Assembly (NCBI GenBank): GCA_030144725.1
Contig: JASKMD010000017.1
Coordinates: 6,505,992 to 6,569,991 of the forward strand
Origin: Haematococcus lacustris
Taxonomy: Eukaryota; Chlorophyta; Chlorophyceae; Chlamydomonadales; Haematococcaceae
Length of the DNA: 64,000 bases
Direction of reading: 5' to 3'
The position numbers and the translations under genes are program-made. Under the pieces are notes generated by a model. It saw only the letters and a list, made by a program, of their open reading frames with translations. It was not told where the DNA came from and did not search any database. Each line of letters begins with the position of its first letter. Position 1 is the first letter of the stretch. Below, in pieces: positions 824 to 52,498 of this stretch.

Positions 824-1050
824 CTACAGGCAAACAAAACTCATTCAACAAGGAACAACATGTCGGCCTGTGGGTAATCTCACTCCGCTACAATCAAATT
901 GAAGCATCCTCGGTCGCACCCTTGATGACTGCAAACCCCAGTCCGGTGGCACTCGTTCAAGGGGCTAATCCCCCTTGACCACTGGGCTCCTCATCAAAAC
1001 TAACAGCATTATGCTTTGTAAGGCTAACAGCCTGCCTGTAAACTACCAGA
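824..1050 (-). ncRNA. Candidate Fanzor guide RNA (fRNA/omegaRNA) region, left copy
   Basis: This non-coding stretch directly follows the Fanzor stop codon (1053-1051) and runs to the element end. Its core at 911-952, read on the minus strand, has GTGCCACCGG followed by TGGGG and AGTCATCAAGGGTGCGACC. The same core follows the other three Fanzor copies (12374-12415, 12739-12780, 18389-18430). In known Fanzor and TnpB systems the guide RNA is made from the 3' end of the gene and the element end, so position and conservation fit. Transcription and folding were not tested; this is inference. Confidence 0.35.
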
Positions 1051-1052
1051 CC

Positions 1053-4000
1053 CTATGCATTGTTGTTGCGGGCCCGGCCATCAATACCTCGGCGGTATTC
1101 TGCAGCCCGGTGCAGCCTCTGCCTGGCCTTGGGCAGCCGGTCATTGACCCGCTTGTAGCCCTGCTGGTACTCCTTGCCTATGGGGGGCAGAGCCTTCAGG
1201 CCCTCATAGCTGCACAGCTCCAGGGGGCGCTGCATGCTCTCCCCAATGCGCTGGAAGTTGAGGCAGGGGTTGGTGTCCCGGTCCAGCCACCTGCCCCATG
1301 AAGGGGCCTGGGGTCGTGGCACTGGGCCAGGTGGAGGCTGGGCAGGGGGCTGGGCAGGGGGAGGGGGAGGGGGTGGGACCTGGGCTGGGGGGAGGGGAGG
1401 GGGGGCCTGGGCAGGGGGAGGGGGGTCCTGGGCAGGGGGAGGGGGGGGGGTCCTGGGCAGGGGCAGGGGGGGTCCTGGGCAGGGGCAGGGGCAGGGGGGC
1501 CCTGGGCAGGCGGGTGCTGAGCTGGGGGAGGGGGAGCGGGGTTGGGCGGCACCTCATGGCACCACTTAAGGCCCCGCACAGCCTTAGAATGCCGCAGGCT
1601 CCATGCTGGGCGCAACAGCCGCTGGTTGACCTGGCCTGCTGGGGGTACCCAGTCTTCGGGCCTAGGCTGGTCATTTGGCAGGTGCAGCTCACAAGGCTGG
1701 CGGGCATGCACAGAGGAGCTGACACGGGTGGTGCGGAACTCATCCACAATCACCAGCCTGTCTGGCCTGGGATCTGCACTGGGCCTGCTGGGCTGCTCCA
1801 CCACCCTGCGAAACCCCTCCCGCACCGCATTGGCCTTCCACCCACCCTGGCTGAAGCGGCCCGCTCCCAGGAACACCGCCACTCCCCTCTCCTGGTGGTA
1901 GTGCTGGCGTGACACCCACTTCATCCCATTCACCACCTGCAGGTCAGGTCAGGTCAGGTCAGGTCAGGTCAGGTCAGGTCAGGTCAGGTCAGGTCAGGTC
2001 AGGTCAGGTCAGGTCAGGTCAGGTCAGGTCAGGTCAGGTCAGGTCAGGTCAGGTCAGGTCAGGTCAGGTCAGGTCAGGTCAGGTCAGGTCAGGTCAGGTC
2101 AGGTCAGGTCAGGTCAGGTCAGGTCAGGTCAGGTCAGGTCAGGTCAGGTCAGGTCAGGTCAGGTCAGGTCAGGTCAGGTCAGGTCAGGTCAGGTCAGGTC
2201 AGGTCAGGTCAGGTCAGGTCAGGTCAGGTCAGGTCAGGTCAGGTCAGGTCAGGTCAGGTCAGGTCAGGTCAGGTCAGGTCAGGTCAGGTCAGGTCAGGTC
2301 AGGTCAGGTCAGGTCAGGTCAGGTCAGGTCAGGTCAGGTCAGGTCAGGTCAGGTCAGGTCAGGTCAGGTCAGGTCAGGTCAGGTCAGGTCAGGTCAGGTC
2401 AGGTCAGGTCAGGTCAGGTCAGGTCAGGTCAGGTCAGGTCAGGTCAGGTCAGGTCAGGTCAGGTCAGGTCAGGTCAGGTCAGGTCAGGTCAGGTCAGGTC
2501 AGGTCAGGTCAGGTCAGGTCAGGTCAGGTCAGGTCAGGTCAGGTCAGGTCAGGTCAGGTCAGGTCAGGTCAGGTCAGGTCAGGTCAGGTCAGGTCAGGTC
2601 AGGTCAGGTCAGGTCAGGTCAGGTCAGGTCAGGTCAGGTCAGGTCAGGTCAGGTCAGGTCAGGTCAGGTCAGGTCAGGTCAGGTCAGGTCAGGTCAGGTC
2701 AGGTCAGGTCAGGTCAGGTCAGGTCAGGTCAGGTCAGGTCAGGTCAGGTCAGGTCAGGTCAGGTCAGGTCAGGTCAGGTCAGGTCAGGTCAGGTCAGGTC
2801 AGGTCAGGTCAGGTCAGGTCAGGTCAGGTCAGGTCAGGTCAGGTCAGGTCAGGTCAGGTCAGGTCAGGTCAGGTCAGGTCAGGTCAGGTCAGGTCAGGTC
2901 AGGTCAGGTCAGGTCAGGTCAGGTCAGGTCAGGTCAGGTCAGGTCAGGTCAGGTCAGGTCAGGTCAGGTCAGGTCAGGTCAGGTCAGGTCAGGTCAGGTC
3001 AGGTCAGGTCAGGTCAGGTCAGGTCAGGTCAGGTCAGGTCAGGTCAGGTCAGGTCAGGTCATACCTTCTTGCAGAAGGCCTCAATGACACGATCCTGGGC
3101 ATGGTGCAGCCCCAAACGTTGCCTGCGCCAGCGTGGCTTGAGGTACTCCTCCCACAGTTCGTCCCAGGTGGCTTTGAGGGCCTGGATGTGGGCCTGGAGG
3201 CTGTCCATGGTTGTGCCAGCTGGGGTGGCAGCTGCCAGCTGCAGCAGCTGTGGCTGGATGGCAGTTGACCAGCGGGCTGTGTCCTGCTTGGCTTTGGTAA
3301 GCCCGCTGTCATGCTTCAGCTGCCCCTTAGTCAGCTCCCACTCCCACTGCCTCACCACCTGACCTGTGACTGGGTCCCGCATTGCATGCGCTGCCTTGAT
3401 GGCCTGTGTAACGCCTGGGTCCACCCCAACTGCTATGTGGGTGGCTGCGCTGAAGTCACTGGTGGCTGTGAGCTCACGCCCTATGCAAGGCGGCTCCACT
3501 GGCTCCTTGACTACCTGGTTGCGCACGAAGTGCACACTGACGCTGACCCCATCGGTCTCTACCCTGCGCGCAAAGTCCCACCCGCTGTTTTGCAGCTGGC
3601 TGTACTGGATGAACTTCTGCCAATGGGGCAGGCTGTCTGCCTCAACCTGGGCCCTTGTGAGGGTGGTCATGCCCAGGTCAGTCAGCACCCCATGCAGCAC
3701 TCTGTCATCAATGACGAAATGCCTGGCCCGCACCCCCACCATGGGGAGCATGGTGAAGGGGCGCGGGCAGGTGCGAGGGAGGTGGCTGTTGCCATGGGGT
3801 TTGGCATGGGGGGCTGTCTGACAGCCCTCTAGGCTGCGGTTCACGAACAAGACATAGCGCACCCTACACTCTATAGGCAGCCTGCCTGCCCCCCCCTTTC
3901 CCTATAGAGTCCTGTCCCTCCCGCCACGTGGCCGGCAGGCCCAGCAGCCTCCTGTGCCTGACTACCTCTTCCTTCCACCAAGGCTGCCGCAGTACGCTGT

Positions 4001-5026
4001 TGGCCGGCAAGCGCCACTTGTGCTTTGGGTCCGGCTGGCTGTAGTCGAGGCGGCCTAGCACTAGCTGGGGGAAGCGCTTCTTCACCTCCCGGCTGAACCC
4101 ACACCCCACCACCCCCATCGCCTTGCCCCACTTGTTGATGAACCGCCCCGGGTGCCGGTAGAACTCCTGGATGCTGGTGATGATGGTGGTGGCGTTGGCG
4201 TTGAGGGAGTTGAGGTCCCCTCGCAGGTGCACCTCATCCAGCTGCTGGAGCATTGCCACCGGCCAAGCGCTGCTGGGCTGCTCAAAAACCGCCACCTCAC
4301 CGGGCAGCAGCCTGATGCCGGGGTGGTGGGGGCCACGCATCATGTGCTCAATCACGCTGGCTTTGGCGAGCAGCTCCATAGCATCTTTGATCTGTGCCAG
4401 CAGCTGTGGGTCCCAGATGTCGAGCTGCACTGGGGGGGGCAGCTGGGCTGGGGCGGCTGCGGTGCGGGGGGAGATGCGTGTGGCAACGCGGGGGTGGGCA
4501 TAGGGAGGGCAGGCTGGGTCAGGTGGGGGAGGGGGGCCTGGGGCTGGACCTGCTGCTGGGAAGTCTTGGGTGGGCTGGGCTGGACTGGGCTGGCCTAGGA
4601 AAGAGGCAAGCAACACTGACAGGCACAGGACTGCTGCCAGGCAGCATTGCTTGCTGCCCATGGTCATGCGCTTGTTAATCTCAGCCACAATGGCGTCGAC
4701 TTGTGCGGGGCTGAGATCAGGCAGGGCTGCCTTCACAAGGCCACGCAGGCCAGCCTTGATGACCTGGCGCCTCTCGGCAATCACTACCTTGGCAGCCCGC
4801 CCCTGCCCCTGCCCCTGGACTTGCTGCCCACTGCCACTGGCGCCTGCAGACACGGGAAAGCACAGCACACGCACGGCAGGACTTGATGCACAAGGTCGCA
4901 ATGTCGCGTGGGGCACACTGCGCCGCGTCGTCAGTTAGCTTCGGGGCCTTTCCTCAAGCTATGCGGCTTACCAGCTGCGGAGGGTGCTGGGGAGACGGGG
5001 CGCTTGCAGTTCCTTTTCGGGGACAT
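1053..5026 (-). CDS. Fanzor-like RNA-guided nuclease (eukaryotic TnpB family), nearly complete copy
   Basis: This gene probably encodes a Fanzor, an RNA-guided DNA endonuclease of the TnpB/OMEGA type. Proposed exons are 5026-4972, 4843-3065, 1936-1553 and 1337-1053. Exon 1 starts at ATG 5026 with a basic, NLS-like stretch (SPKRNCKRP). Family landmarks in order are GWDFARRVETDGVSVSVHF, the RuvC-I motif AVGVDPG, the basic YLKPRWRRQR helix, VDEFRTT (the region that in Fanzors carries an alternative catalytic Glu), RGLKWCHE, and RuvC-III DRDTNPCLNF. The first zinc-finger CxxC pair is replaced by Ser/Val. The frame breaks once at a G8 run (3889-3896); one fewer G would keep it open, so this is a sequencing error, a polymorphism or a lesion. 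A hydrophobic stretch near 4610-4665 ends CCTAG and may be an unrecognised intron. Introns 2 and 3 are C-rich on the sense strand. The family call is strong; activity is unknown. Confidence 0.82.
1338..1552 (-). other. C-rich third intron of the left Fanzor gene
   Basis: On the minus strand the donor is GAG|GTGCCG and the acceptor is CTGCCCAG|CCT. Both are phase 0, so CHE joins to the frame leading to WGRWLDRDTN. If it were translated instead, it would give a long Pro-rich tract in the wrong frame. The sense strand is almost wholly C-rich. Confidence 0.55.
1941..3060 (-). repeat. (CCTGA)n satellite that fills a Fanzor intron
   Basis: This is 224 uninterrupted copies of AGGTC on the plus strand, which is CCTGA on the gene's sense strand. 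The enclosing intron (1937-3064) reads GTAT, then 224 copies of GACCT, then GCAG, so only four bases at each end are not satellite. The flanking exons are AAG|GTAT and GCAG|GTGGTG in phase 0. Each unit contains CTGAC, which matches the eukaryotic branch-point consensus. No substitutions are visible in the array, implying recent expansion or homogenisation. Confidence 0.95.
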
Positions 5027-5150
5027 CACATGGACTGAGCAACACCATCGGAGCGGAGTGGCTGTGTTAGGGGGTGCATCAAGTCATCGTCCAACCGGAG
5101 CGGGCCGGCAACCGGAGGAATGAGGTGCAGCGGAAGTGAGATCCATTACA

Positions 5151-6118
5151 TCTCCATGAGGTGCAGCGGATGCTCCCAAGTCAGACCATGTACACGTGTG
5201 GCCCTTCCCAACTAACAACTCATGCAAGGCCTTATATGGCACGATTCTGTGGCCATCACTGATGCCATGCCTCGCTCCCTGGCCACCCACCAGGCCCTGC
5301 CAGCGCTGTCGCTGTGACTGTGCCAGCGCTGTCGCTGTGACTGTGCCAGCGCTGTCGCTGTGACTGTGCCAGCGCTGTCGCTGTGACATCCACCTGCAGA
5401 CATCCTGCAGACATCCAGACATGCACCTGGTGCCGTGACCCTCCCACCTCCCCTGCCAACCTTTCACACTACAGCCTGAGGTGTGCAGGGCACTGGTGGT
5501 TCTAGTCTACTACGTCCACAACAGTGTCCTTGAGGCTGCGGGTGTGTGACTACCCAGTTTGGCATGACAGACATGCACTAATGGAAGCTGACACCACCCA
5601 TGACAGGGCACACATTTTTTGCTGCTGCCGCTGCTGCTGCTGTTGGGCCTTGGGTGGGCGGTCTCACATACTCCCTCCCCCTTGTATGGCAGCCTCACCT
5701 GCTCTTGCTAGCAGCCCAGCTGCAGTGGACGCCACGTGGCCACCCCAATGTGCCGTATGTTCAACGCTGCATTGCAGTCAACCCACCTGTCTGCCTGCTG
5801 TGCTGGACTGGCCTTTGCAGCCTTGCCCTTGCCTCTGCCCTTGGAGGGTTGGGTGGGCTAGATGGGTGTGCTTCTTATGCCTGATTGTAGGGGGAGTAGG
5901 TCTCCACATTCCAGTTGCCCCTGAACCAAGGACTGCAAGGACTGCACGATTCTGTACGTGGTGTTGAACGAGTTGGGTTTGGCTATTCAAGGACTGAACG
6001 TGAGGTTGAGGACAGGGCACCTCAACCAGTACTCAACCAGGACTCAGCTGGACTCTCAGCAGGAGGTCACGGCCGTCAAGCAGGTTATCATGGGCTGGGA
6101 ATGTGGAAACTAAGTGAT
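5151..6118. other. Spacer between the two Fanzor arms
   Basis: This is the unique centre of the inverted pair, lying between the divergent 5' ends of the two genes, so any promoters for both would lie here or in the arm tips. It contains a 23-bp tandem repeat (5301-5390) and no recognisable coding region. Open frames in it have no family features. Confidence 0.55.
5301..5390. repeat. 23-bp tandem repeat, four copies
   Basis: Almost four identical head-to-tail copies of a 23-bp unit beginning CAGCGCTGTCGCTGTGACTG lie in the spacer between the divergent Fanzor genes. Nothing in it suggests coding function. Confidence 0.85.
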
Positions 6119-6835
6119 ATGTGTAATGGATCTCACTTCCGCCTCATTCCGGTTGCCGCCACTCCGGTTGGATGGCGACCTGATGCACCACCCAGCACGG
6201 CCACTGCGCTTCGATGGTGTTGCTCAGTCCATGTGATGTCCCCGAAAAGGAACTGCAAGCGCCCCGTCTCCCCAGCACCCTCCGCAGCTGGTAAGCCGCA
6301 TAGCTTGAGGAAAGGCCCCGAAGCTAACTGACGACGCGGCGCAGTGTGCCCCACGCGACATTGCGACCTTGTGCATCAAGTCCTGCCGTGCGTGTGCTGT
6401 GCTTTCCCGTGTCTGCAGGCGCCAGTGGCAGTGGGCAGCAAGTCCAGGGGCAGGGGCAGGGGCAGGCTGCCAAGGTAGTGATTGCCGAGAGGCGCCAGGT
6501 CATCAAGGCTGGCCTGCGTGGCCTTGTGAAGGCAGCCCTGCCTGATCTCAGCCCCGCACAAGTCGACGCCATTGTGGCTGAGATTAACAAGCGCATGACC
6601 ATGGGCAGCAAGCAATGCTGCCTGGCAGCAGTCCTGTGCCTGTCAGTGTTGCTTGCCTCTTTCCTAGGCCAGCCCAGTCCAGCCCAGCCCACCCAAGACT
6701 TCCCAGCAGCAGGTCCAGCCCCAGGCCCCCCTCCCCCACCTGACCCAGCCTGCCCTCCCTATGCCCACCCCCGCGTTGCCACACGCACCTCCCCCCGCAC
6801 AGCAGTTGCCCCAGCCGCTCCAGATCACGTCCCGT

Positions 6836-9800
6836 ACCTGACCTGACCTGACCTGACCTGACCTGACCTGACCTGACCTGACCTGACCTGACCTGACCTG
6901 ACCTGACCTGACCTGACCTGACCTGACCTGACCTGACCTGACCTGACCTGACCTGACCTGACCTGACCTGACCTGACCTGACCTGACCTGACTTGACCTG
7001 ACCTGACCTGACGTGACCTGACCTGACCTGACCTGACCTGACCTGACCTGACCTGACCTGACCTGACCTGACCTGACCTGACCTGACCTGACCTGACCTG
7101 ACCTGACCTGACCTGACCTGACCTGACCTGACCTGACCTGACCTGACCTGACCTGACCTGACCTGACCTGACCTGACCTGACCTGACCTGACCTGACCTG
7201 ACCTGACCTGACCTGACCTGACCTGACCTGACCTGACCTGACCTGACCTGACCTGACCTGACCTGACCTGACCTGACCTGACCTGACCTGACCTGACCTG
7301 ACCTGACCTGACCTGACCTGACCTGACCTGACCTGACCTGACCTGACCTGACCTGACCTGACCTGACCTGACCTGACCTGACCTGACCTGACCTGACCTG
7401 ACCTGACCTGACCTGACCTGACCTGACCTGACCTGACCTGACCTGACCTGACCTGACCTGACCTGACCTGACCTGACCTGACCTGACCTGACCTGACCTG
7501 ACCTGACCTGACCTGACCTGACCTGACCTGACCTGACCTGACCTGACCTGACCTGACCTGACCTGACCTGACCTGACCTGACCTGACCTGACCTGACCTG
7601 ACCTGACCTGACCTGACCTGACCTGACCTGACCTGACCTGACCTGACCTGACCTGACCTGACCTGACCTGACCTGACCTGACCTGACCTGACCTGACCTG
7701 ACCTGACCTGACCTGACCTGACCTGACCTGACCTGACCTGACCTGACCTGACCTGACCTGACCTGACCTGACCTGACCTGACCTGACCTGACCTGACCTG
7801 ACCTGACCTGACCTGACCTGACCTGACCTGACCTGACCTGACCTGACCTGACCTGACCTGACCTGACCTGACCTGACCTGACCTGACCTGACCTGACCTG
7901 ACCTGACCTGACCTGACCTGACCTGACCTGACCTGACCTGACCTGACCTGACCTGACCTGACCTGACCTGACCTGACCTGACCTGACCTGACCTGACCTG
8001 ACCTGACCTGACCTGACCTGACCTGACCTGACCTGACCTGACCTGACCTGACCTGACCTGACCTGACCTGACCTGACCTGACCTGACCTGACCTGACCTG
8101 ACCTGACCTGACCTGACCTGACCTGACCTGACCTGACCTGACCTGACCTGACCTGACCTGACCTGACCTGACCTGACCTGACCTGACCTGACCTGACCTG
8201 ACCTGACCTGACCTGACCTGACCTGACCTGACCTGACCTGACCTGACCTGACCTGACCTGACCTGACCTGACCTGACCTGACCTGACCTGACCTGACCTG
8301 ACCTGACCTGACCTGACCTGACCTGACCTGACCTGACCTGACCTGACCTGACCTGACCTGACCTGACCTGACCTGACCTGACCTGACCTGACCTGACCTG
8401 ACCTGACCTGACCTGACCTGACCTGACCTGACCTGACCTGACCTGACCTGACCTGACCTGACCTGACCTGACCTGACCTGACCTGACCTGACCTGACCTG
8501 ACCTGACCTGACCTGACCTGACCTGACCTGACCTGACCTGACCTGACCTGACCTGACCTGACCTGACCTGACCTGACCTGACCTGACCTGACCTGACCTG
8601 ACCTGACCTGACCTGACCTGACCTGACCTGACCTGACCTGACCTGACCTGACCTGACCTGACCTGACCTGACCTGACCTGACCTGACCTGACCTGACCTG
8701 ACCTGACCTGACCTGACCTGACCTGACCTGACCTGACCTGACCTGACCTGACCTGACCTGACCTGACCTGACCTGACCTGACCTGACCTGACCTGACCTG
8801 ACCTGACCTGACCTGACCTGACCTGACNNNNNNNNNNNNNNNNNNNNNNNNNNNNNNNNNNNNNNNNNNNNNNNNNNNNNNNNNNNNNNNNNNNNNNNNN
8901 NNNNNNNNNNNNNNNNNNNNNNNNNNNNNNNNNNNNNNNNNNNNNNNNNNNNNNNNNNNNNNNNNNNNNNNNNNNNNNNNNNNNNNNNNNNNNNNNNNNN
9001 NNNNNNNNNNNNNNNNNNNNNNNNNNNNNNNNNNNNNNNNNNNNNNNNNNNNNNNNNNNNNNNNNNNNNNNNNNNNNNNNNNNNNNNNNNNNNNNNNNNN
9101 NNNNNNNNNNNNNNNNNNNNNNNNNNNNNNNNNNNNNNNNNNNNNNNNNNNNNNNNNNNNNNNNNNNNNNNNNNNNNNNNNNNNNNNNNNNNNNNNNNNN
9201 NNNNNNNNNNNNNNNNNNNNNNNNNNNNNNNNNNNNNNNNNNNNNNNNNNNNNNNNNNNNNNNNNNNNNNNNNNNNNNNNNNNNNNNNNNNNNNNNNNNN
9301 NNNNNNNNNNNNNNNNNNNNNNNNNNNCTGACCTGACCTGACCTGACCTGACCTGACCTGACCTGACCTGACCTGACCTGACCTGACCTGACCTGACCTG
9401 ACCTGACCTGACCTGACCTGACCTGACCTGACCTGACCTGACCTGACCTGACCTGACCTGACCTGACCTGACCTGACCTGACCTGACCTGACCTGACCTG
9501 ACCTGACCTGACCTGACCTGACCTGACCTGACCTGACCTGACCTGACCTGACCTGACCTGACCTGACCTGACCTGACCTGACCTGACCTGACCTGACCTG
9601 ACCTGACCTGACCTGACCTGACCTGACCTGACCTGACCTGACCTGACCTGACCTGACCTGACCTGACCTGACCTGACCTGACCTGACCTGACCTGACCTG
9701 ACCTGACCTGACCTGACCTGACCTGACCTGACCTGACCTGACCTGACCTGACCTGACCTGACCTGACCTGACCTGACCTGACCTGACCTGACCTGACCTG

Positions 9801-11480
9801 ACCTGACCTGACCTGACCTGACCTGACCTGACCTGACCTGACCTGACCTGACCTGACCTGACCTGACCTGACCTGACCTGACCTGACCTGACCTGACCTG
9901 ACCTGACCTGACCTGACCTGACCTGACCTGACCTGACCTGACCTGACCTGACCTGACCTGACCTGACCTGACCTGACCTGACCTGACCTGACCTGACCTG
10001 ACCTGACCTGACCTGACCTGACCTGACCTGACCTGACCTGACCTGACCTGACCTGACCTGACCTGACCTGACCTGACCTGACCTGACCTGACCTGACCTG
10101 ACCTGACCTGACCTGACCTGACCTGACCTGACCTGACCTGACCTGACCTGACCTGACCTGACCTGACCTGACCTGACCTGACCTGACCTGACCTGACCTG
10201 ACCTGACCTGACCTGACCTGACCTGACCTGACCTGACCTGACCTGACCTGACCTGACCTGACCTGACCTGACCTGACCTGACCTGACCTGACCTGACCTG
10301 ACCTGACCTGACCTGACCTGACCTGACCTGACCTGACCTGACCTGACCTGACCTGACCTGACCTGACCTGACCTGACCTGACCTGACCTGACCTGACCTG
10401 ACCTGACCTGACCTGACCTGACCTGACCTGACCTGACCTGACCTGACCTGACCTGACCTGACCTGACCTGACCTGACCTGACCTGACCTGACCTGACCTG
10501 ACCTGACCTGACCTGACCTGACCTGACCTGACCTGACCTGACCTGACCTGACCTGACCTGACCTGACCTGACCTGACCTGACCTGACCTGACCTGACCTG
10601 ACCTGACCTGACCTGACCTGACCTGACCTGACCTGACCTGACCTGACCTGACCTGACCTGACCTGACCTGACCTGACCTGACCTGACCTGACCTGACCTG
10701 ACCTGACCTGACCTGACCTGACCTGACCTGACCTGACCTGACCTGACCTGACCTGACCTGACCTGACCTGACCTGACCTGACCTGACCTGACCTGACCTG
10801 ACCTGACCTGACCTGACCTGACCTGACCTGACCTGACCTGACCTGACCTGACCTGACCTGACCTGACCTGACCTGACCTGACCTGACCTGACCTGACCTG
10901 ACCTGACCTGACCTGACCTGACCTGACCTGACCTGACCTGACCTGACCTGACCTGACCTGACCTGACCTGACCTGACCTGACCTGACCTGACCTGACCTG
11001 ACCTGACCTGACCTGACCTGACCTGACCTGACCTGACCTGACCTGACCTGACCTGACCTGACCTGACCTGACCTGACCTGACCTGACCTGACCTGACCTG
11101 ACCTGACCTGACCTGACCTGACCTGACCTGACCTGACCTGACCTGACCTGACCTGACCTGACCTGACCTGACCTGACCTGACCTGACCTGACCTGACCTG
11201 ACCTGACCTGACCTGACCTGACCTGACCTGACCTGACCTGACCTGACCTGACCTGACCTGACCTGACCTGACCTGACCTGACCTGACCTGACCTGACCTG
11301 ACCTGACCTGACCTGACCTGACCTGACCTGACCTGACCTGACCTGACCTGACCTGACCTGACCTGACCTGACCTGACCTGACCTGACCTGACCTGACCTG
11401 ACCTGACCTGACCTGACCTGACCTGACCTGACCTGACCTGACCTGACCTGACCTGACCTGACCTGACCTGACCTGACCTG
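6836..11480 (+). repeat. (CCTGA)n satellite, about 4.6 kb including a gap
   Basis: Pure CCTGA pentamers run from 6836 to 11480, interrupted by the N run and by single substitutions at about 6991-6993 and 7011-7013. On the right it ends at the intron acceptor GCAG of the Fanzor gene; on the left it abuts a deletion breakpoint. It is the same satellite as in the left Fanzor intron and in hAT intron 5. The true length is unknown because of the gap. Confidence 0.95.
8828..9327. other. Assembly gap, exactly 500 N
   Basis: Exactly 500 N characters lie inside the (CCTGA)n array, the usual size of an arbitrary scaffold gap. The inverted arrangement of the two Fanzor arms depends on correct joining across this gap only for the right copy's 3' half. 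Confidence 0.97.
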
Positions 11481-12300
11481 CAGGTGGTGAATGGGATGAA
11501 GTGGGTGTCACGCCAGCACTACCACCAGGAGAGGGGAGTGGCGGTGTTCCTGGGAGCGGGATGCTTCAGCCAGGGTGGGTGGAAGGCCAATGCGGTGCGG
11601 GAGGGGTTTCGCAGGGTGGTGGAGCAGCCCAGCAGGCCCAGCGCAGATCCCAGGCCAGACAGGCTGGTGATTGTGGATGAGTTCCGCACCACCCGTGTCA
11701 GCTCCTCTGTGCATGCCCGCCAGCCTTGTGAGCTGCACCTGCCAAATGACCGGCCTAGGCCCGCAGATTGGGTACCCCCAGCAGGCCAGGTCAACCAGCG
11801 GCTGGTGCACCCAGCCAAGAGCCAGCGGCATGCTAAGTATGTGCGGGACCTGCTGTGGTGCCATGAGGTGCCGCCCCCCCCCCCCCCCCCCCCTCCCCAG
11901 GACCCACCTCCCCAGCCCAGGACCCCCTTGCCCAGGACCCCCCTGTCCCTGCCCAGGACCCGCCTCCCCCTCTCCCACCTGACCAGGCTCCCCCTCCCCC
12001 AGCCCAGGCCCAGCCCCCCCCCCTGCTGCACCTGGCCCAGTGCCACGACCCCAGGCCCCTCCCTGGGGTAGGTACCGGGACATTAACGGATGCTTGAAAT
12101 TCCAGCGCATTGGGGAGAGCATGCAGCGCCCCCTGGAGCTGTGCAGCTGGATGGACCGGGAGTCTCTGCCTGTCAGTGGCGAGGAGTACCAGCAAGGCTA
12201 CAAGCTGGTCAATGACCGGCTGTCCAAGGGCAGGCAGAGGTTGCACCGGGCGGCAGAATACCGGCGGGGCATTCATGGCTGGGCCCACAACAACCCATAG

Positions 12301-12509
12301 GGCCTAGCAATTTGAACATGCTGTTAGCCTTTCCTGTTAGTTTTGATGAGGTGCCCAGTGTTTTAGGGGACCAATGCCACCGGTGTGGGGTTTGTAGTCA
12401 TCAAGGGTGCGACCGAGGATGCTTCAATTTGATTGTAGCGGAGTGAGATTACCCACAGGCCGACATGTTGTTCCTTGTTGAATGAGTTTTGTTGGCCTGT
12501 AGGGGGAGT
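12301..12509 (+). ncRNA. Candidate Fanzor guide RNA (fRNA/omegaRNA) region, right copy
   Basis: This is the non-coding segment between the Fanzor stop codon and the element end. It carries the same core as the other copies (12374-12415: TGCCACCGG, TGTGGGG, GTAGTCATCAAGGGTGCGACC) and a conserved terminal block ending CTGTAGGGGGAGT. By analogy with TnpB/Fanzor biology the guide would lie just beyond this end. Expression is untested. Confidence 0.35.
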
Positions 12510-12872
12510 ACCTGGCATGGAATTTCAATTGGCAAGGAGTACCAGCAGGGCTACAAGCGGGTCAATGACCGACTGCTCAAGGCCAGGCAGAGGCTGCACC
12601 GGGCAGCAGAGTACTGCCGGGGTAGTGATGGCCGGGCCCGCAACAATGCATAGGCCCTAGTAATCTGCACAGGCTGTTAGCCTTTCAAGCTGTTGTTTTG
12701 ATGAGGTGCCCAGTGGTCTCCAGTTGTTTGGAATGAGCGTGCCACCGGAGTGGGGTTTGTAGTCATCAAGGGTGCGACCCAGGCTATCACAACTATCGAG
12801 TAGCTGAGTGATTACCCACAGTCAGACATGTTGCTCCATGTTGAACAGGTTTTCTTTGACTGTAGGGGGAGT
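12510..12872 (+). pseudogene. Third Fanzor copy: 3' fragment
   Basis: Directly after the end of the right arm, the sequence from about 12527 encodes a C-terminal Fanzor segment (KEYQQGYKRVNDRL, then RQRLHRAAEY with Arg to Cys nearby) and stops at 12651-12653. It is followed by the conserved 3' non-coding core (12739-12780) and the same terminal block CTGTAGGGGGAGT ending at 12872. No catalytic domain is present. It resembles a 5'-truncated or tandemly joined element end. Confidence 0.75.
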
Positions 12873-16726: not shown

Positions 16727-17059
16727 ATACGCAAAGCCACAGTGCTCGGCTGGTGTTTCACTTTTAATTCTGCTTGGAGCAGGCCATAGCTGGTCGGCTG
16801 TAGCTTTGGGGGTTGGCTGTACCTCTGGGGGCGGTTGTTTTGACGAACAAGGACGCTATTGTCCCGTTAGCTGGGGTGGTGGCAAGGATGATGGCGTCAA
16901 GCATCGCAGGAGCAAATGCACAAGTGCGCCGTGCAAGTCAGTCGTGCAAGTCAGTGCAGTCGTGCAAGTCAGGCTGCGGGGCTTATCAGGCTAACTAGTC
17001 AAGCACTCTCCGCACTAGCGGGACTAGCTAAGTATACTCCGGGGGCTACAGCTCTCTCG
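16727..17059 (+). repeat. Inverted dispersed repeat, left member
   Basis: This about 330-bp segment matches 20997-21327 in reverse complement with scattered substitutions and small gaps. Shared blocks include GAACAAGGACGCTATTGTCC, GCGCCGTGCAAGTCAGTCG and CACTCTCCGCACTAGCGGGA. The right end (GGGCTACAGCTCTC) passes directly into the (GGGGC)n array. Open frames within it exist in both members but carry no recognisable domain. Confidence 0.85.
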
Positions 17060-17060
17060 G

Positions 17061-17704
17061 CGGGGCGGGGCGGGGCGGGGCGGGGCGGGGCGGGGCGGGG
17101 CGGGGCGGGGCGGGGCGGGGCGGGGCGGGGCGGGGCGGGGCGGGGCGGGGCGGGGCGGGGCGGGGCGGGGCGGGGCGGGGCGGGGCGGGGCGGGGCGGGG
17201 CGGGGCGGGGCGGGGCGGGGCGGGGCGGGGCGGGGCGGGGCGGGGCGGGGCGGGGCGGGGCGGGGGGCGGGGGCGGGGCGGGGGCGGGGCGGGGCGGGGC
17301 GGGGCGGGGCGGGGCGGGGCGGGGCGGGGCGGGGCGGGGCGGGGCGGGGCGGGGCGGGGCGGGGCGGGGCGGGGCGGGGCGGGGCGGGGCGGGGCGGGGC
17401 GGGGCGGGGCGGGGGCGGGGCGGGGCGGGGCGGGGCGGGGCGGGGCGGGGGGGCGGGGCGGGGCGGGGCGGGGCGGGGCGGGGCGGGGCGGGGCGGGGGC
17501 GGGGCGGGGCGGGGCGGGGCGGGGCGGGGCGGGGCGGGGCGGGGCGGGGCGGGGCGGGGCGGGGCGGGGCGGGGCGGGGCGGGGCGGGGCGGGGGCGGGG
17601 CGGGGCGGGGCGGGGCGGGGCGGGGCGGGGCGGGGCGGGGCGGGGCGGGGCGGGGCGGGGCGGGGGCGGGGCGGGGCGGGGCGGGGCGGGGCGGGGCGGG
17701 GCGG
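17061..17704 (+). repeat. (GGGGC)n array, about 640 bp
   Basis: Tandem CGGGG units occupy the block with several length variants (GGGGG runs near 17263-17284, 17411, 17447, 17495, 17591 and 17661). The plus strand is strongly G-quadruplex-prone. It begins exactly where the dispersed repeat 16727-17059 ends. No gene can be assigned around it. Confidence 0.95.
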
Positions 17705-18035
17705 GCTCTCGCGATGAGCAAAACTGGCATGAACTTGAATGTCAAGAATTGAGCCGCCCTAGCACTCAGCACACTGCACACTGCACAGTAATGATACAAG
17801 CTGCACCGCATAGCTGACAGAGTCTTCTATCCGGGGATGTGCTGCACACAAGTCAAAACCACATGGCTGAGACGCGGTGTCGTTTTGATTATCTGGGGTA
17901 GGTTCTCTCTTAGTTGGGACCGGCTGATGGCCATCCTTAAACAGCCACCGCCCATGTTAACAGAGTAGAGCAAACCAAACAAACTGACGGACACGTCGAT
18001 GATGATTCAGGCACACACTGTGTGCAGAAGAGCAC
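17705..18035. other. No supported gene
   Basis: Short non-repetitive sequence lies between the (GGGGC)n block and the fourth Fanzor relic. Nothing coding was recognised. Confidence 0.45.
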
Positions 18036-18430
18036 CTTGGAGGCCCCACCTCCCCCTGCGCAGCCCCCCTTTGCTGAACCTGACTCGATGCCCGCACCCC
18101 AAGGCCCCCATGCGGCAGGTGGGCTGGACTGGGACACTAGCCCGTGACTCAAGTTCCAGCGCATTAGGGAGAGCGAGCAAAGCCCTTTAAAGATGTGCCG
18201 CTGGGAGGGCCCGGAGGCTCTGCCTACCCCTGGCAAGGAGCATTAGCAGGGCTTCAAGTTGGCTGATTACCGGCTGTCCAAGGCCAAGCAGTGGTTGCAC
18301 CAGGCGACAGAGTACCGGCGAAGCAAGGATAGTTGGGCCCTCAACCACCCATAGGGTGATAAGAAACCCAATGGTCTTGGGGGGGAACGTGCCACCAGGG
18401 ATGGGGCATGTAGTCATCAAAGGTATTCCC
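18036..18430 (+). pseudogene. Fourth Fanzor copy: decayed C-terminal relic
   Basis: The reading runs MPAPQGPH, a degenerate RuvC-III (LDWDTSP, then a stop codon, then LKFQRI), RESEQSPLKMC, PGKEH, another stop, QGFKLADYRLSKAKQWLH and ATEYRRS, ending at TAG 18352-18354. Relative to the other copies it has at least two in-frame stops and has lost the Arg of DRD and the Asn of the DxN motif. The 3' non-coding core is still recognisable at 18389-18430 (GTGCCACC, ATGGGGCATGTAGTCATCAA). This is the oldest copy in the window. Confidence 0.8.
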
Positions 18431-25671: not shown

Positions 25672-26185
25672 TGGGGTGGGGTGGGGTGGGGTGGGGTGGG
25701 GTGGGGTGGGGTGGGGTGGGGTGGGGTGGGGTGGGGTGGGTGGGGTGGGGTGGGGTGGGGTGGGGTGGGGTGGGTGGGGTGGGGTGGGGTGGGGTGGGGT
25801 GGGGTGGGGTGGGGTGGGGTGGGGTGGGGTGGGGTGGGGTGGGGTGGGGTGGGGTGGGGTGGGGTGGGGTGGGGTGGGGTGGGGTGGGGTGGGGTGGGGG
25901 GTGGGGTGGGGTGGGGTGGGGTGGGGTGGGGTGGGGTGGGGTGGGGTGGGGTGGGGTGGGGTGGGGTGGGGTGGGGTGGGGTGGGGTGGGGTGGGGTGGG
26001 GTGGGGTGGGGGTGGGGTGGGGTGGGGGTGGGGTGGGGTGGGGTGGGGTGGGGTGGGGTGGGGGGTGGGGTGGGGTGGGGTGGGGTGGGGTGGGGTGGGG
26101 TGGGGTGGGGTGGGGTGGGGTGGGGTGGGGTGGGGTGGGGTGGGGTGGGGTGGGGTGGGGTGGGGTGGGGTGGGGTGGGGTGGGA
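25672..26185 (+). repeat. (GGGGT)n array, about 515 bp
   Basis: These are tandem GGGGT units with a few single-base length variants (for example near 25740, 25771, 25897 and 26008). It lies within the 9-kb TIR element. The same pentamer occurs in a GLG1-like intron at 51859-52087. Confidence 0.95.
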
Positions 26186-27070
26186 TAGGGGAGGGGTGGG
26201 GGTGGGATAGGGGTGGGCCGTGTGGCCGTCACACCTGCAGCAAACAAGGGGCGTGCTAGCGGTTAGGCTGGGTACAAGGGGTCACTTATGTGCGTGGGGC
26301 TAGCCACTCACTGCTTGCTCCATGCGGTCCCTTGATCATTCCTTAGGGGGAGGGAGAGGGGGAGGGGGGAGTCTGGCAGGTGGTGGTGGGCAGTGTGGTA
26401 GGGAGGAGGGAGGAGGGAAGAGGGAGGAGGGAAGAGCGAGGAGGGAGGAGGGAAGAGGGAAGAGCGAGGAGGGAGGAGGGTACGCTTTTGCTCTTGTCCG
26501 CCGCCCTGGCTGCCGCTACTTGTTGCCGTTGTGGTTGCTGCTTCTGGCTGATGGAAGGTGCCACTGCGCCTTGGCACCGAACCTGCTCAAGCAATACATG
26601 GCACATGGCACATGCCACGCTCCAACCTCGCGGTCGCACCTCAGAGTCGCATCTATGCATCGCACCTTTGCAAGCTATCTTTGTGCCGTTCGCCCTCAAC
26701 TCTGTGCTTGATCACAAATACCCTATTCCTTTCGCTGATCGCTAATGGCTGCGAAACCGAGCTGCATGCTGGCCTCTTGGCTGACGACTGATGGCTGCGA
26801 AGGCTAGCTGGCCCGCATTTCATGGCCGGCTGCGAGGCTGCGCATTTGGGCGCTGTTGATGTCGCTGCTGCTGAGTTTGGGATGGACGTGTCGCGTGTTG
26901 CGTGTTGCCGCATTACTGCGGGCTTTGCGAGGTCGACATGGTTTCCTCTCATGGCGCCTCGCGACTTCATGGCACACCAACGGCATGCTTGGTGGCAGCT
27001 GGCGCAGATCCCAATACACAGCCCGTCAGTTTTCGCGCTCTTGCATGCAAGTCACATGCACAATTGATAA
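26186..27070. other. No supported gene; GGGA-rich stretch at 26340-26480
   Basis: A GGGAGGAGGGAAGAGG-type purine-rich block is followed by sequence with overlapping short frames on both strands. No recognisable product was found. Confidence 0.4.
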
Positions 27071-28542: not shown

Positions 28543-29878
28543 GGACCTTTTTCTGAGGAGTTTTTCTGAAACATCGTTAAATTCAAAGATAATTTGAACT
28601 TTCTTATGAAATTTGCCGAGGTTGGGCAGCCGCTTAGCGACCGCCAACCGCACTACGTGCTACGTCGGAGTGCGCTTCAGGTTCGGGGCCACCAAGGAGG
28701 CGTTGAGGCGCAGTACTTACTTGTAATTACTACGAGGACCCCCGCACGTGGGCACCGAAGGACCCCCGCTCGTAGATTATTCGAGTAACTTAAAAAAGTG
28801 TGTGCGCAAGCTACTGCGCCTCAACGCCTCCTTGGTGGCCCCGAACCTGAAGCGCACTTCGACATAGCACGTAGTGCGGTTGGCGGTCGCTGAGCTGCTG
28901 CCCAATCCCGGCAAATTTCATAAGAAGGTTCAAACTATCTTTGAATTTGGCGTTGTTTCAGAAAAATGACCTTTTTCTGAAACATCATTAAATTAAAAGA
29001 TAATTTGAACTTTCTTATGAAATTTGCCGAGGTTGGGCAGCAGCTTAGCGACCGCCAACCGCACTACGTGCTACGTCGAAGTGCGCTTCAGATTCGGGGC
29101 CACCAAGGAGGCGCTGAGGCGCAGTAGCTTGCAAACACACTTTTTTAAGTTACTTGTAATTACTTTGATTATCTACGAGGACCCCCGCACGTGGGCACCG
29201 AAGGACCCCCGCTCGTAGATAATTCGAGTAACTTGAAAAAAGTGTGTGCGCAAGCTACTGCGCCTCAACGCCTCCTTGGTGGCCCCGAATCTGAAGCGCA
29301 CTTCGACGTAGCACGTAGTGCGGTTGGCGGTCGCTGAGCTGCTGCCCAATCCCGGCGAACTTCATAAGAAGGTTCAAATAATCTTTGAATTTGGCGTTGT
29401 TTCAGAAAAAGGTCCCATATGACGTGGGACCTTTTTCTGAAAACACGTTAAATCCAAAGATAGTTTGAACCTTCTTATGAAATTTGCCGGGGTTGGGCAG
29501 CAGCTTAGCGACCGCCAGCCGCACTACGTGCTACGTCGTCGTGCGCTTCAGATTCGGGGCCCCCAAGGAGGCGTTGGAGCGCGGTAGATTGCTAACACAC
29601 TTTTTTAAGTTATTTGTAATTACTTCAATTATCTACGAGGACCCCCGCACGTGGGCACCGAAGGACCCTTGCTCGCAGATAAATCGAGTAACTTAAAAAA
29701 GTGTGTGCGCAAGCTACTGCGCCTCAACGCCTACTTGGTGGCCCTGAACCTGAAGCGCACTTCGACGAGGCACGTGGTGCGGTTGGCGGTCGCTGAGCTG
29801 CTGCCCAATCCCGGCAAATTTCTTAAGAAGGTTCAAACTATCTTTGAATTTGGCGTTGTTTCAGAAAAAGGTCCGTGG
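28543..29878. repeat. Three tandem long-hairpin (foldback) units
   Basis: Units lie at about 28543-28966, 28970-29415 and 29426-29878. Each is itself an inverted repeat with arms of about 200 bp around a centre near CGAGGACCCCCGCACGTGGG. Arms contain GCGACCGCCAACCGCACTAC and its complement. Unit ends are GGACCTTTTTCTGAAA and its inverse, and the junctions are also palindromic. Open frames in the arms are mirrored on both strands and show no known protein. This resembles a tandemly amplified foldback or MITE family. Confidence 0.85.
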
Positions 29879-30361: not shown

Positions 30362-33300
30362 ATGTCGGAGGCTCCACAGCACGCTAAGAGGCGTATGGCG
30401 TCCGGGCTGAGAGGCACATCGCTTCCTCCGCCCTTGTTGCCCAGTGGACTCGGAGGCTCATCCTTGAAGAAGCACAAGACTCAGCACAAGACAAAGTCGG
30501 CGTGGGTGATGGAGCAGCTGACGGCCGTCACAGCACCGACGAGCGACCCCGACGAGACTGACGGCGCTGTCAACTTCGTTCTGCGCTATATGTGCAATCA
30601 CTGCCAAGATAACTTGGCGGGCAGTAACAAGGACCGTCTCAAGAGACATCTCTTGCGATGCAGCAAGTTCCTAGCCAGCACGCAGGCAGGGAACATCGCC
30701 AGGACCTTCTCAGAACTCGCGGCAGCCATTGAAGAGTACAAGCAAGAAAACAAGGAGGTCGCCGAGGTGCAGCAAGACGCTGGGACCACCCCGAGCAGCA
30801 AGTCGACAGCTCGCGCAGGTAACTATCACCTGTGGACCAGGATGTGTTAGGAGGGTGCAACAGGGTGCAATAGAAGGGTGCAATAGAAGGGTCCATTACA
30901 CCACTATCATGTTTTGTGTTTATGCATTTGACAGGAAGTGGTGTCGTGGAGGACAAAGGACGCTTTGCCAAGGACCTGGTGAAGCTGATTGTAGACTGCA
31001 ACCTCCCCTTCAACATCGTGGACAACCCAACGTTCAAGACTTTCTTGGCTACCTGGGTGCCTGCAATGCCTGTCCCCTCTCGTGACCAGGTACACCTCCA
31101 CCCCCTCCCAAGCTCAGTTGTGAGGCCCAGCCCCACAGTCCCCTCCCACCACCACCTCCTCCCACCACCTATCAAGCCCCACCCACCCCACCACCTCCCA
31201 AGCCCAGCCCAGCCCAGCCCAACCCCACTTCCCCCAGCCCCGCCACGCCCTGCCCCACCCAGCCCCGTCCCACCCCACCTCGCCCATTGCTGCCCTGCCC
31301 TGCCCTGCCCTGCCCTGCCCTGCCCTGCCCTGCCCTGCCCTGCCCTGCCCTGCCCTGCCCTGCCCTGCCCTGCCCTGCCCTGCCCTGCCCTGCCCTGCCC
31401 TGCCCTGCCCTGCCCTGCCCTGCCCTGCCCTGCCCTGCCCTGCCCTGCCCTGCCCTGCCCTGCCCTGCCCTGCCCTGCCCTGCCCTGCCCTGCCCTGCCC
31501 TGCCCTGCCCTGCCCTGCCCTGCCCTGCCCTGCCCTGCCCTGCCCTGCCCTGCCCTGCCCTGCCCTGCCCTGCCCTGCCCTGCCCTGCCCTGCCCTGCCC
31601 TGCCCTGCCCTGCCCTGCCCTGCCCTGCCCTGCCCTGCCCTGCCCTGCCCTGCCCTGCCCTGCCCTGCCCTGCCCTGCCCTGCCCTGCCCTGCCCTGCCC
31701 TGCCCTGCCCTGCCCTGCCCTGCCCTGCCCTGCCCTGCCCTGCCCTGCCCTGCCCTGCCTGCCCTGCCCTGCCCTGCCCTGCCCTGCCCTGCCCTGCCCT
31801 GCCCTGCCCTGCCCTGCCCTGCCCTGCCCTGCCCTGCCCTGCCCTGCCCTGCCCTGCCCTGCCCTGCCCTGCCCTGCCCTGCCCTGCCCTGCCCTGCCCT
31901 GCCCTGCCCTGCCCTGCCCTGCCCTGCCCTGCCCTGCCCTGCCCTGCCCTGCCCTGCCCTGCCCTGCCCTGCCCTGCCCTGCCCTGCCCTGCCCTGCCCT
32001 GCCCTGCCCTGCCCTGCCCTGCCCTGCCCTGCCCTGCCCTGCCCTGCCCTGCCCTGCCCTGCCCTGCCCTGCCCTGCCCTGCCCTGCCCTGCCCTGCCCT
32101 GCCCTGCCCTGCCCTGCCCTGCCCTGCCCTGCCCTGCCCTGCCCTGCCCTGCCCTGCCCTGCCCTGCCCTGCCCTGCCCTGCCCTGCCCTGCCCTGCCCT
32201 GCCCTGCCCTGCCCTGCCCTGCCCTGCCCTGCCCTGCCCTGCCCTGCCCTGCCCTGCCCTGCCCTGCCCTGCCCTGCCCTGCCCTGCCCTGCCCTGCCCT
32301 GCCCTGCCCTGCCCTGCCCTGCCCTGCCCTGCCCTGCCCTGCCCTGCCCTGCCCTGCCCTGCCCTGCCCTGCCCTGCCCTGCCCTGCCCTGCCCTGCCCT
32401 GCCCTGCCCTGCCCTGCCCTGCCCTGCCCTGCCCTGCCCTGCCCTGCCCTGCCCTGCCCTGCCCTGCCCTGCCCTGCCCTGCCCTGCCCTGCCCTGCCCT
32501 GCCCTGCCCTGCCCTGCCCTGCCCTGCCCTGCCCTGCCCTGCCCTGCCCTGCCCTGCCCTGCCCTGCCCTGCCCTGCCCTGCCCTGCCCTGCCCTGCCCT
32601 GCCCTGCCCTGCCCTGCCCTGCCCTGCCCTGCCCTGCCCTGCCCTGCCCTGCCCTGCCCTGCCCTGCCCTGCCCTGCCCTGCCCTGCCCTGCCCTGCCCT
32701 GCCCTGCCCTGCCCTGCCCTGCCCTGCCCTGCCCTGCCCTGCCCTGCCCTGCCCTGCCCTGCCCTGCCCTGCCCTGCCCTGCCCTGCCCTGCCCTGCCCT
32801 GCCCTGCCCTGCCCTGCCCTGCCCTGCCCTGCCCTGCCCTGCCCTGCCCTGCCCTGCCCTGCCCTGCCCTGCCCTGCCCTGCCCTGCCCTGCCCTGCCCT
32901 GCCCTGCCCTGCCCTGCCCTGCCCTGCCCTGCCCTGCCCTGCCCTGCCCTGCCCTGCCCTGCCCTGCCCTGCCCTGCCCTGCCCTGCCCTGCCCTGCCCT
33001 GCCCTGCCCTGCCCTGCCCTGCCCTGCCCTGCCCTGCCCTGCCCTGCCCTGCCCTGCCCTGCCCTGCCCTGCCCTGCCCTGCCCTGCCCTGCCCTGCCCT
33101 GCCCTGCCCTGCCCTGCCCTGCCCTGCCCTGCCCTGCCCTGCCCTGCCCTGCCCTGCCCTGCCCTGCCCTGCCCTGCCCTGCCCTGCCCTGCCCTGCCCT
33201 GCCCTGCCCTGCCCTGCCCTGCCCTGCCCTGCCCTGCCCTGCCCTGCCCTGCCCTGCCCTGCCCTGCCCTGCCCTGCCCTGCCCTGCCCTGCCCTGCCCT

Positions 33301-36300
33301 GCCCTGCCCTGCCCTGCCCTGCCCTGCCCTGCCCTGCCCTGCCCTGCCCTGCCCTGCCCTGCCCTGCCCTGCCCTGCCCTGCCCTGCCCTGCCCTGCCCT
33401 GCCCTGCCCTGCCCTGCCCTGCCCTGCCCTGCCCTGCCCTGCCCTGCCCTGCCCTGCCCTGCCCTGCCCTGCCCTGCCCTGCCCTGCCCTGCCCTGCCCT
33501 GCCCTGCCCTGCCCTGCCCTGCCCTGCCCTGCCCTGCCCTGCCCTGCCCTGCCCTGCCCTGCCCTGCCCTGCCCTGCCCTGCCCTGCCCTGCCCTGCCCT
33601 GCCCTGCCCTGCCCTGCCCTGCCCTGCCCTGCCCTGCCCTGCCCTGCCCTGCCCTGCCCTGCCCTGCCCTGCCCTGCCCTGCCCTGCCCTGCCCTGCCCT
33701 GCCCTGCCCTGCCCTGCCCTGCCCTGCCCTGCCCTGCCCTGCCCTGCCCTGCCCTGCCCTGCCCTGCCCTGCCCTGCCCTGCCCTGCCCTGCCCTGCCCT
33801 GCCCTGCCCTGCCCTGCCCTGCCCTGCCCTGCCTGCCTGCCCTGCCCTGCCCTGCCCTGCCCTGCCCTGCCCTGCCCTGCCCTGCCCCTGCCCTGCCCTG
33901 CCCTGCCCTGCCCTGCCCTGCCCTGCCCTGCCCTGCCCTGCCCTGCCCTGCCCTGCCCTGCCCTGCCCTGCCCTGCCCTGCCCTGCCCTGCCCTGCCCTG
34001 CCCTGCCCTGCCCTGCCCTGCCCTGCCCTGCCCTGCCCTGCCCTGCCCTGCCCTGCCCTGCCCTGCCCTGCCCTGCCCTGCCCTGCCCTGCCCTGCCCTG
34101 CCCTGCCCTGCCCTGCCCTGCCCTGCCCTGCCCTGCCCTGCCCTGCCCTGCCCTGCCCTGCCCTGCCCTGCCCTGCCCTGCCCTGCCCTGCCCTGCCCTG
34201 CCCTGCCCTGCCCTGCCCTGCCCTGCCCTGCCCTGCCCTGCCCTGCCCTGCCCTGCCCTGCCCTGCCCTGCCCTGCCCTGCCCTGCCCTGCCCTGCCCTG
34301 CCCTAAGCCGCTTAGCAGGGTCATGGGTAACTCATGTCTTGACCCCTTACTACCTACGCTTTGGTTTACGCTGCAGCTCAGCGGTCCTTTGCTGATGGCG
34401 CTTTATGCCAACGTGGTGCGGGAAGTCACGCAGCGCCTGACCCGGGCTCAGTTCTTTGCTCTCACACTGGATGGGTGGTCAAGGACGCAAGGATCAGAGC
34501 ATCTCCTTGGCTTCTGTGCTGCTCTGCCTGGAGGGTCATCAGTATTCCTGGACGTTGTCTTGACCCAGGACCACAGTGTTACATCGGACTTCATGCTGGC
34601 CAAGATCACCCAGATCCTTGAGAAGCACAACCTGGTAAGTGGCTAGGGCGGGCAAGGGCTAGGGCTAGAGTGGTAGGAAGGGTCAGGACAGAGATGTGAG
34701 AAGCAAGGGAAGGAGGGAGGGAAAGGAGGGGAGGGGACGGGGACCATGGCCTTGGGTAGTGACTTAACATTGTGTATGTGTGCATGTATATGTGTGCATG
34801 TGTATGTGTGCATTGCAGACGGGCAAGATCTGTGGCCTGGTGACGGACACACCCTCAAGCAGGCAGAAGTTGTGGTGCTTAGTGGAGGCAGCCATGCCCA
34901 AGGTCTTGGCAATGGGCTGCTGGGCGCACATCTTGAACCTCTTCTTCACAGGTCAGATAGCTACGTATATCCCATGCTCTACATGTTTAGAGGTCCACAC
35001 CACCACCTCCCAACACAATCCTTCAACCCCCTATACTGAAGCCTCGTGCCTTGGCCCCATGCATGCCGCTATGTTATACGCATTAGCGCTTATGCCTTAC
35101 TCTTTGCACATGTCAAGTATCCCCGTCTTGACTGATATGACTGTCTTGATTGAGATCTTTGCAGATGTCAAGAAGCTCCCCCGCATCTTTGAGCACATTG
35201 AGGAGGCAAAGGACATCGTGAACCTCTTCGCCCGCCAGGTCACCCCGCACGAGTGGTTGCGCAATCAGCAGGGCCCAAATGGCACAGCACTTGTGCCCAT
35301 GTGTGCAACCCGCTTCAGCAGCATGTACAAGATGTTGCGGAGCTTGCAGCAAAACAAGCAGGCTCTCATCAACACAGTGGTGTTGCATGGGTTTGACGCC
35401 GATGAGCGTGCAAAGCGGATCAAGAGTCGTGTGCTGTCTGAGGCATGGTGGGCACTGAACAACTGCTTGGTGGAGCTGATGGTCCCCGTGGCTCAGCTGT
35501 TGACAGCCATTCAAGCAAATCACGCCAACCTTGCTGACGTGCACTACGGCTTGGCCATAGTGGATAAGTGGTTTGGTGATGCCACGAGGTGAGACACCAC
35601 CACCACACCCACCACCACCACTACCTCCACCACCCCACCACCACCACCACCCGACCTGACCTGACCTGACCTGACCTGACCTGACCTGACCTGACCTGAC
35701 CTGACCTGACCTGACCTGACCTGACCTGACCTGACCTGACCTGACCTGACCTGACCTGACCTGACCTGACCTGACCTGACCTGACCTGACCTGACCTGAC
35801 CTGACCTGACCTGACCTGACCTGACCTGACCTGACCTGACCTGACCTGACCTGACCTGACCTGACCTGACCTGACCTGACCTGACCTGACCTGACCTGAC
35901 CTGACCTGACCTGACCTGACCTGACCTGACCTGACCTGACCTGACCTGACCTGACCTGACCTGACCTGACCTGACCTGACCTGACCTGACCTGACCTGAC
36001 CTGACCTGACCTGACCTGACCTGACCTGACCTGACCTGACCTGACCTGACCTGACCTGACCTGACCTGACCTGACCTGACCTGACCTGACCTGACCTGAC
36101 CTGACCTGACCTGACCTGACCTGACCTGACCTGACCTGACCTGACCTGACCTGACCTGACCTGACCTGACCTGACCTGACCTGACCTGACCTGACCTGAC
36201 CTGACCTGACCTGACCTGACCTGACCTGACCTGACCTGACCTGACCTGACCTGACCTGACCTGACCTGACCTGACCTGACCTGACCTGACCTGACCTGAC

Positions 36301-37760: not shown

Positions 37761-37761
37761 C

Positions 37762-52000: not shown

Positions 52001-52498
52001 GGTGGGGTGGGGTGGGGTGGGGTGGGGTGGGGTGGGGTGGGGTGGGGTGGGGTGGGGTGGGGTGGGGTGGGGTGGGGTGGGGTGGGGCAGCATTGGTGTA
52101 AGGAGGATACAGGGGAGAGGGGAGGGAAGGGCGACACCTTGAGCACCATGAGACAAGTCTGACCCAGACTTCCTGCTGGCGCTGTTGCTGCTGGCTGTTG
52201 GCAGATGAGCCTGGGGCAGGCCATGCAAAACAGTGTATGACCCACCAGCCTGTTTTGCTAAACCTGCCCGACTTGATCTGGTCTGGTCTGGCCTGTTCTG
52301 TTGTGTATTGCCCTGGCTCAACCTGCTCTGATGCAACCCGTTGTGCATGCTGCCCCAGCCTCTCACTTCAGGTCGCGGACTCGGTGAGCAATCATGTCAT
52401 CCACCTCTGCCTTGCAGGCGGGGTCAAAGCCGGCCTCGTTGCGGTGCTGCTCCAGGCAGTCCTTCACCCGGGCAGCGCCTGCACAGCCAAGGGGCTCA

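Follow-up and report, generated by a model that had tools for sequence, protein, structure and literature searches.

By the window we mean the whole stretch of DNA analysed here, 64,000 nucleotides of contig JASKMD010000017.1 of the green alga Haematococcus lacustris (H. pluvialis). It is algal nuclear DNA; the contig measures 12,486,648 bases and the genome 307.9 Mb. The window carries copies of a H. lacustris mobile element whose only recognised gene is very probably a Fanzor, a Fanzor1-like member of the TnpB family that has lost its zinc ribbon. The left copy is organised as follows:

831..5151, minus strand: nearly complete left element, running from a 5' end near 5151 to a 3' end at 831, where its 3' terminal motif finishes; similarity to 20 other copies stops at both places
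4972..5026, minus strand: exon 1, from translation; matches the start of predicted protein P0002
3065..4843, minus strand: exon 2; carries the RuvC-I motif GVDPG from 3427 and a frame break at about 3900-3889
1937..3064, minus strand: intron of 1128 nt with 223 exact CCTGA units, ends GTATGA...CTGCAG
1553..1936, minus strand: exon 3, with the E-alt motif VDEFRTTRVSSSV from 1750
1053..1337, minus strand: exon 4, from translation, with the RuvC-III motif DRDTNP from 1283
831..1052, minus strand: 3' noncoding end, slow-evolving, a candidate omega-RNA or transposition end

The initial annotation had read the motifs AVGVDPG, VDEFRTT and DRDTNPCLNF in this order on one gene, and this reading is correct: GVDPG, VDEFRTT and DRDTNP follow one another on the minus strand from 3427, 1750 and 1283. 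Its exon boundaries concur with P0002 (95% identity across 85% of the region queried; ...APSAAG-ASGSGQQ..., ...FCKK-VVNGMKWV...), yet 4843-3065 is not one open frame. The two halves of exon 2 lie in different frames around an A/G homopolymer at about 3900-3889, with a stop following a one-base length difference that is unique to the left copy when compared with 13 relatives. All four local copies that had been proposed exist, but the right copy is partial and the third and fourth are only 3' fragments, and the view that one copy is close to intact does not hold, the left copy being frame-broken and the others partial. Open frames of 624-629 residues span the exon 2 region in several genomic relatives; therefore intact copies exist elsewhere in the genome.

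The gene has many relatives. We find 340 homologous proteins at E<=0.001, and the 120 listed all come from H. lacustris; together with at least 138 scored genomic matches to exon 2b, these numbers exclude chance similarity. The Fanzor fingerprints are present. The DPG of RuvC-I occurs as GVDPG in the window, with Pro and Gly each in 46 of 48 non-gap relatives, and E-alt, a Glu six residues ahead of the zinc-finger position, reads E-FRTTRV-S, with Glu in 51 of 51 relatives. The combination of DPG with E-alt is described as almost confined to Fanzors and their near relatives in cyanobacteria (PMC10711439). The Fanzor1 motif D-X(125,275)-[TS][TS] runs from D468 to T655 in predicted protein P0004, and the RD that lies past the zinc-finger position is found as DRDTNP in the window, its Asp being present in 47 of 48 non-gap relatives.

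The zinc finger itself is missing. According to the accessible part of their paper, Bao and Jurka place a C4 zinc finger after two Thr/Ser, [TS][TS]XX, in the Fanzor1 motif (PMC3627910), so that the absence of a canonical C4 finger counts against the assignment; elsewhere the finger is ascribed to "many", not all, Fanzors (PMC10711439). In all 51 aligned proteins Ser stands where the first Cys would be, and the second site holds Val, Leu, Asp, Tyr, Arg or His, never Cys; exon 3 of the window carries Ser and Val. Among 348 loose Glu-x-x-[TS][TS]-type matches in the 340 proteins, a few of them unrelated, there is no canonical CxxC. A single downstream Cys is often retained, and P0236 has no Cys between Glu and RD. 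A tree of 380 columns supports groups A, B plus C, D and E at 0.96-1.0 (B and C do not form separate clades and four groups are counted), with median identities of 29-61% between groups. Judged from these alignments, the C4 zinc ribbon is lost in every subfamily seen, and the loss appears to be old among these elements of this one species. The departure from the C4 definition of Bao and Jurka is the main new point; like the element ends and target duplications described below, it goes beyond the initial annotation. Haematococcus Fanzors and zinc-less Fanzors seem undescribed in the literature searched, subscription papers being mostly beyond reach.

The element measures about 3.3 kb when its intron is short, and no transposition enzyme was recognised in it. 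The left copy was compared with 20 others, using end positions for all 21 and similarity profiles for 8. In these profiles similarity mostly ends sharply at both sides, the exceptions falling in arrays, N runs and neighbouring copies. Terminal inverted repeats were not found, the longest shared stretch being 8 bp versus a shuffle mean of 7.1. Flanks were counted in 17 of the 21 copies (L014, L019, L027 and L028 were excluded, their 3' ends lying outside the sequence piece). Nine further copies, covered only by small pieces that do not reach the 3' end, were likewise excluded. CCTG directly follows the 3' end in 12 of the 17 and occurs in shifted or altered forms in the other 5. Exact repeats of 14-17 bp, each starting CTG, CCTG or GCCTG, flank both ends of 5 of the 17 copies, and 272 mispaired flanks never gave a repeat above 9 bp; including the third window copy, the target duplications span 13-17 bp. 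The remaining 12 copies show no duplication above 9 bp, a point against the overall reading. Copies L017, L018, L020 and the third window copy are 5'-truncated. Two marks of the CRe-type Fanzor1 elements borne by Helitron2, 5'-truncated copies and variable target duplications, are found. L012 and L013 are inserted within copies of this same element, so that other copies show what their empty site looks like.

How do these elements move? LINE-type target-primed reverse transcription, in place of Helitron2-type rolling-circle transfer, is a serious possibility, although not the one we favour: constant 3' ends, 5' truncation, lack of terminal inverted repeats and duplications of variable length all agree with it. 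However, the intron between exons 2 and 3 is retained in the 17 of 21 copies measured, unlike in copies of spliced RNA; copying of unspliced RNA could still account for this. In addition, the accessible part of PMC3627910 reports the identical end pattern for Helitron2-borne Fanzor1 elements of Chlamydomonas. We favour movement in trans by an enzyme encoded elsewhere, which would insert the element at CCTG and often lose its 5' part.

Is the protein still a nuclease? Excluding gaps, the catalytic residues are retained in 48 of 48 relatives for Asp-I, in 51 of 51 for Glu-II and in 47 of 48 for Asp-III, and the triad is nearly invariant across the four groups. Median dN/dS of exon 2b is 0.25 in 147 distant pairs and 0.29 in close pairs, for 190 pairs from 20 sequences picked partly for their open frames (L022, having no end marker, was left out); the Fanzor gene is under purifying selection. 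A Fanzor descendant without nuclease activity, either functionless or merely binding DNA under RNA guidance, would agree with the zinc ribbon being lost in all subfamilies seen and with the many broken copies, but such near-invariance of three catalytic residues across groups so far diverged, and the low dN/dS, make it improbable. The protein would rather be a metal-dependent, RNA-guided DNA endonuclease still.

Profile and structure comparisons bear on the Fanzor assignment of the initial annotation, which is borne out. A profile of 51 aligned relatives (alignment A3) searched against PDB has as its best match the Guillardia Fanzor1, GtFz1 (9cer), at E 0.0016, over the TDGVS...DPGK stretch, and the next match lies at 0.67. 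Likewise, a Foldseek search of PDB with the model predicted for a relative of 91% identity returns only the Spizellomyces Fanzor, SpuFz1, at E<=0.001 (4 of 4 matches, 2.8e-6 to 3.7e-5), followed by Cas12-1 at 3.6e-2; D, E-alt and D are retained, and the predicted models have a RuvC-type fold resembling solved Fanzors. The simplest of the checks that had been proposed did not deliver this result: Pfam gives nothing useful in the window pieces. Several results weigh against the assignment. The GtFz1 E value is marginal, and a profile of 17 sequences (alignment A1) found no Fanzor in PDB. Foldseek TM-scores are low (0.19-0.25), the two predicted models are both weak (mean pLDDT 49 and 50), and VIA-align puts Cas12j level with SpuFz1. 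Pfam gave one weak line on six window pieces, PF05791 at E 0.069, which was taken as chance. When 14 relatives were scanned one by one, PF07282 (TNB) rose above cut-off in just 3, namely P0126, P0186 and P0220, chiefly through the short RD tail, which occurs repeatedly in chimeric gene models; in 4 of the 17 members of alignment A1 it is weak (best E 0.031). With a single derived pattern, which distant relatives could escape, 10 matches in prokaryotic contigs and one in viral contigs were obtained, none confirmed as a relative. A prokaryotic TnpB or Cas12-type protein instead of a Fanzor is highly unlikely, since the near-equal VIA-align Z scores (Cas12j 10.9, SpuFz1 10.5, Cas12k 10.1, bacterial RuvC 9.1) are opposed by the Foldseek separation of SpuFz1 from Cas12-1, by the DPG and E-alt fingerprints, by a Fanzor as best sequence match, by introns, and by the lack of a confirmed relative in prokaryotic contigs with that one pattern. 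By fingerprint, fold and element biology, the window gene is a Fanzor, and SpuFz1 and GtFz1 as best matches suggest Fanzor1 rather than Fanzor2.

Many predicted H. lacustris proteins join Fanzor pieces to host domains (PF00069, PF00400 and PF00125, for example). These fusions are probably gene-model chimeras from unmasked elements.

The 3' noncoding end evolves slowly. Its median divergence is 0.12 (0.10 in the last 130 columns) versus 0.25 at 4-fold degenerate sites, and all 59 distant pairs, out of 105 pairs, show it as the slower of the two, distant meaning a 4-fold divergence above 0.2, a choice that favours the contrast. Such conservation fits an omega-RNA or a transposition end. Folding does not strengthen the case: the 3' end gave no two-sided change in 56 predicted pairs and no covariation, and the folding stability of the window copy is not unusual (z -0.53); Rfam has no match in the window. 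In the Fanzor reading that we prefer, the 3' end of about 220 nt would serve as omega-RNA, with flanking genomic sequence as guide.

An extension of this reading, which we put forward tentatively and consider rather doubtful, is that a zinc-free, catalytically intact Fanzor branch has multiplied in the genome with CCTG as both insertion site and target-adjacent motif. Transcripts reading through the 3' end would yield an omega-RNA guided by the sequence after CCTG, so that each insertion would programme cleavage of the matching empty site. At the 5' junction only 9-13 nt of the target duplication would remain past CCTG; active Fanzor structures have 15 base pairs, according to the available portion of PMC11423790, and because 9-13 nt is less than this, the inserted allele would be spared. 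The CCTGA arrays of the intron repeat the same motif.

The intron between exons 2 and 3 ranges from 93 to 2468 nt in the 17 copies measured (no length was obtained for L011, L018, L019 and L025). Exact CCTGA units make up 54-99% of it in 16 copies and 10% in L026, and it starts with GT and ends with CTGCAG, or TTGCAG in L017. CCTG, found at the 3' junction of the element, is part of this repeat, and the splice ends are usable.

The other copies in the window, with their surroundings, are:

6121..6816, plus strand: right copy, 5' part, 96% identical to the left copy and inverted relative to it
6836..11480, plus strand: CCTGA-type array of pentamers (about 929 copies at period 5), occupying the position of exon 2b
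11484..12495, plus strand: right copy, exon 3, exon 4 and 3' end; YRDIN kept, other changes
12497..12509, plus strand: 13-bp target duplication, first unit, ahead of the third copy
12528..12858, plus strand: third copy, 5'-truncated, reduced to its 3' end and roughly the final 40 codons
12860..12872, plus strand: 13-bp target duplication, second unit
18041..18357, plus strand: fourth copy, a decayed C-terminal fragment with internal stops

The array of the right copy includes 500 N at 8828-9327, where the DPG exon is expected; the middle exon of this copy is missing or lies inside the assembly gap. The third copy is inserted beside the 3' end of the right copy and flanked by the 13-bp repeats, while no target duplication was found around the left or the right copy.

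Elsewhere in the window there are long arrays of almost pure pentamers, built from several different units (31290-34304, 35649-37172, 37761-38729, 25672-26217, 17059-17705 and 51859-52087). Two array-split open frames on the plus strand, 34314-34643 and 34768-35589, presumably resemble a hAT-type transposase, going by their motifs; Pfam gave no match for 34314-35592 and PDB none for 34768-35589. An inverted pair, 93% identical and about 1.2 kb apart, is formed by 41868-42415 with 43648-44190. The tandem block at 28561-29874 also matches itself in inverse orientation, and a 16-bp tandem repeat at 50275-50767, of about 31 near-identical units, is open in several frames.

The closest counterparts are CRe-1, CRe-2 and CRe-3 of Chlamydomonas reinhardtii, compared by description only and from the accessible part of PMC3627910, which ties these Fanzor1 elements, intact at the 3' end, 5'-truncated and flanked by duplications of varying length, to Helitron2. 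Like them, the Haematococcus element is green-algal, has a multi-exon Fanzor as its gene, occurs in many copies, is truncated at 5' with intact 3' ends and inserts beside a short motif. The duplications are about 7-19 bp in CRe elements and 13-17 bp in Haematococcus, the target motif is TTTT-like in the former and CCTG in the latter, and the C4 zinc finger included in the Fanzor1 definition of that paper is missing in Haematococcus. SpuFz1 (8gkh, 9cez) shares the D, E-alt, D arrangement at an identity of only about 13-15%, but its nuclease lobe contains a CCCC zinc finger, as stated in the available parts of PMC10432273 and PMC11423790; in many Haematococcus copies a Pro-rich insert separates Glu and RD. 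In GtFz1 the third catalytic residue is Asn (PMC11423790, same portion), whereas it is Asp in Haematococcus. An uncharacterised Fanzor element of Auxenochlorella, likewise compared by description only, is given in the accessible part of PMC12633428 as the most abundant repeat of that green-algal genome.

An amplified family that lacks the zinc finger and keeps its catalytic residues under selection would, if true, mean that the ribbon is dispensable. Interest in Fanzors, which are eukaryotic relatives of the CRISPR nucleases, stems from their potential as compact genome editors, and the family would, on the same premise, supply many natural variants of them. Because Pfam searches based on TNB would mostly miss such proteins, the number of algal Fanzors may be underestimated. 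With copies that carry target duplications and empty sites that can be read, the movement of Fanzors and their target-adjacent motif become testable.

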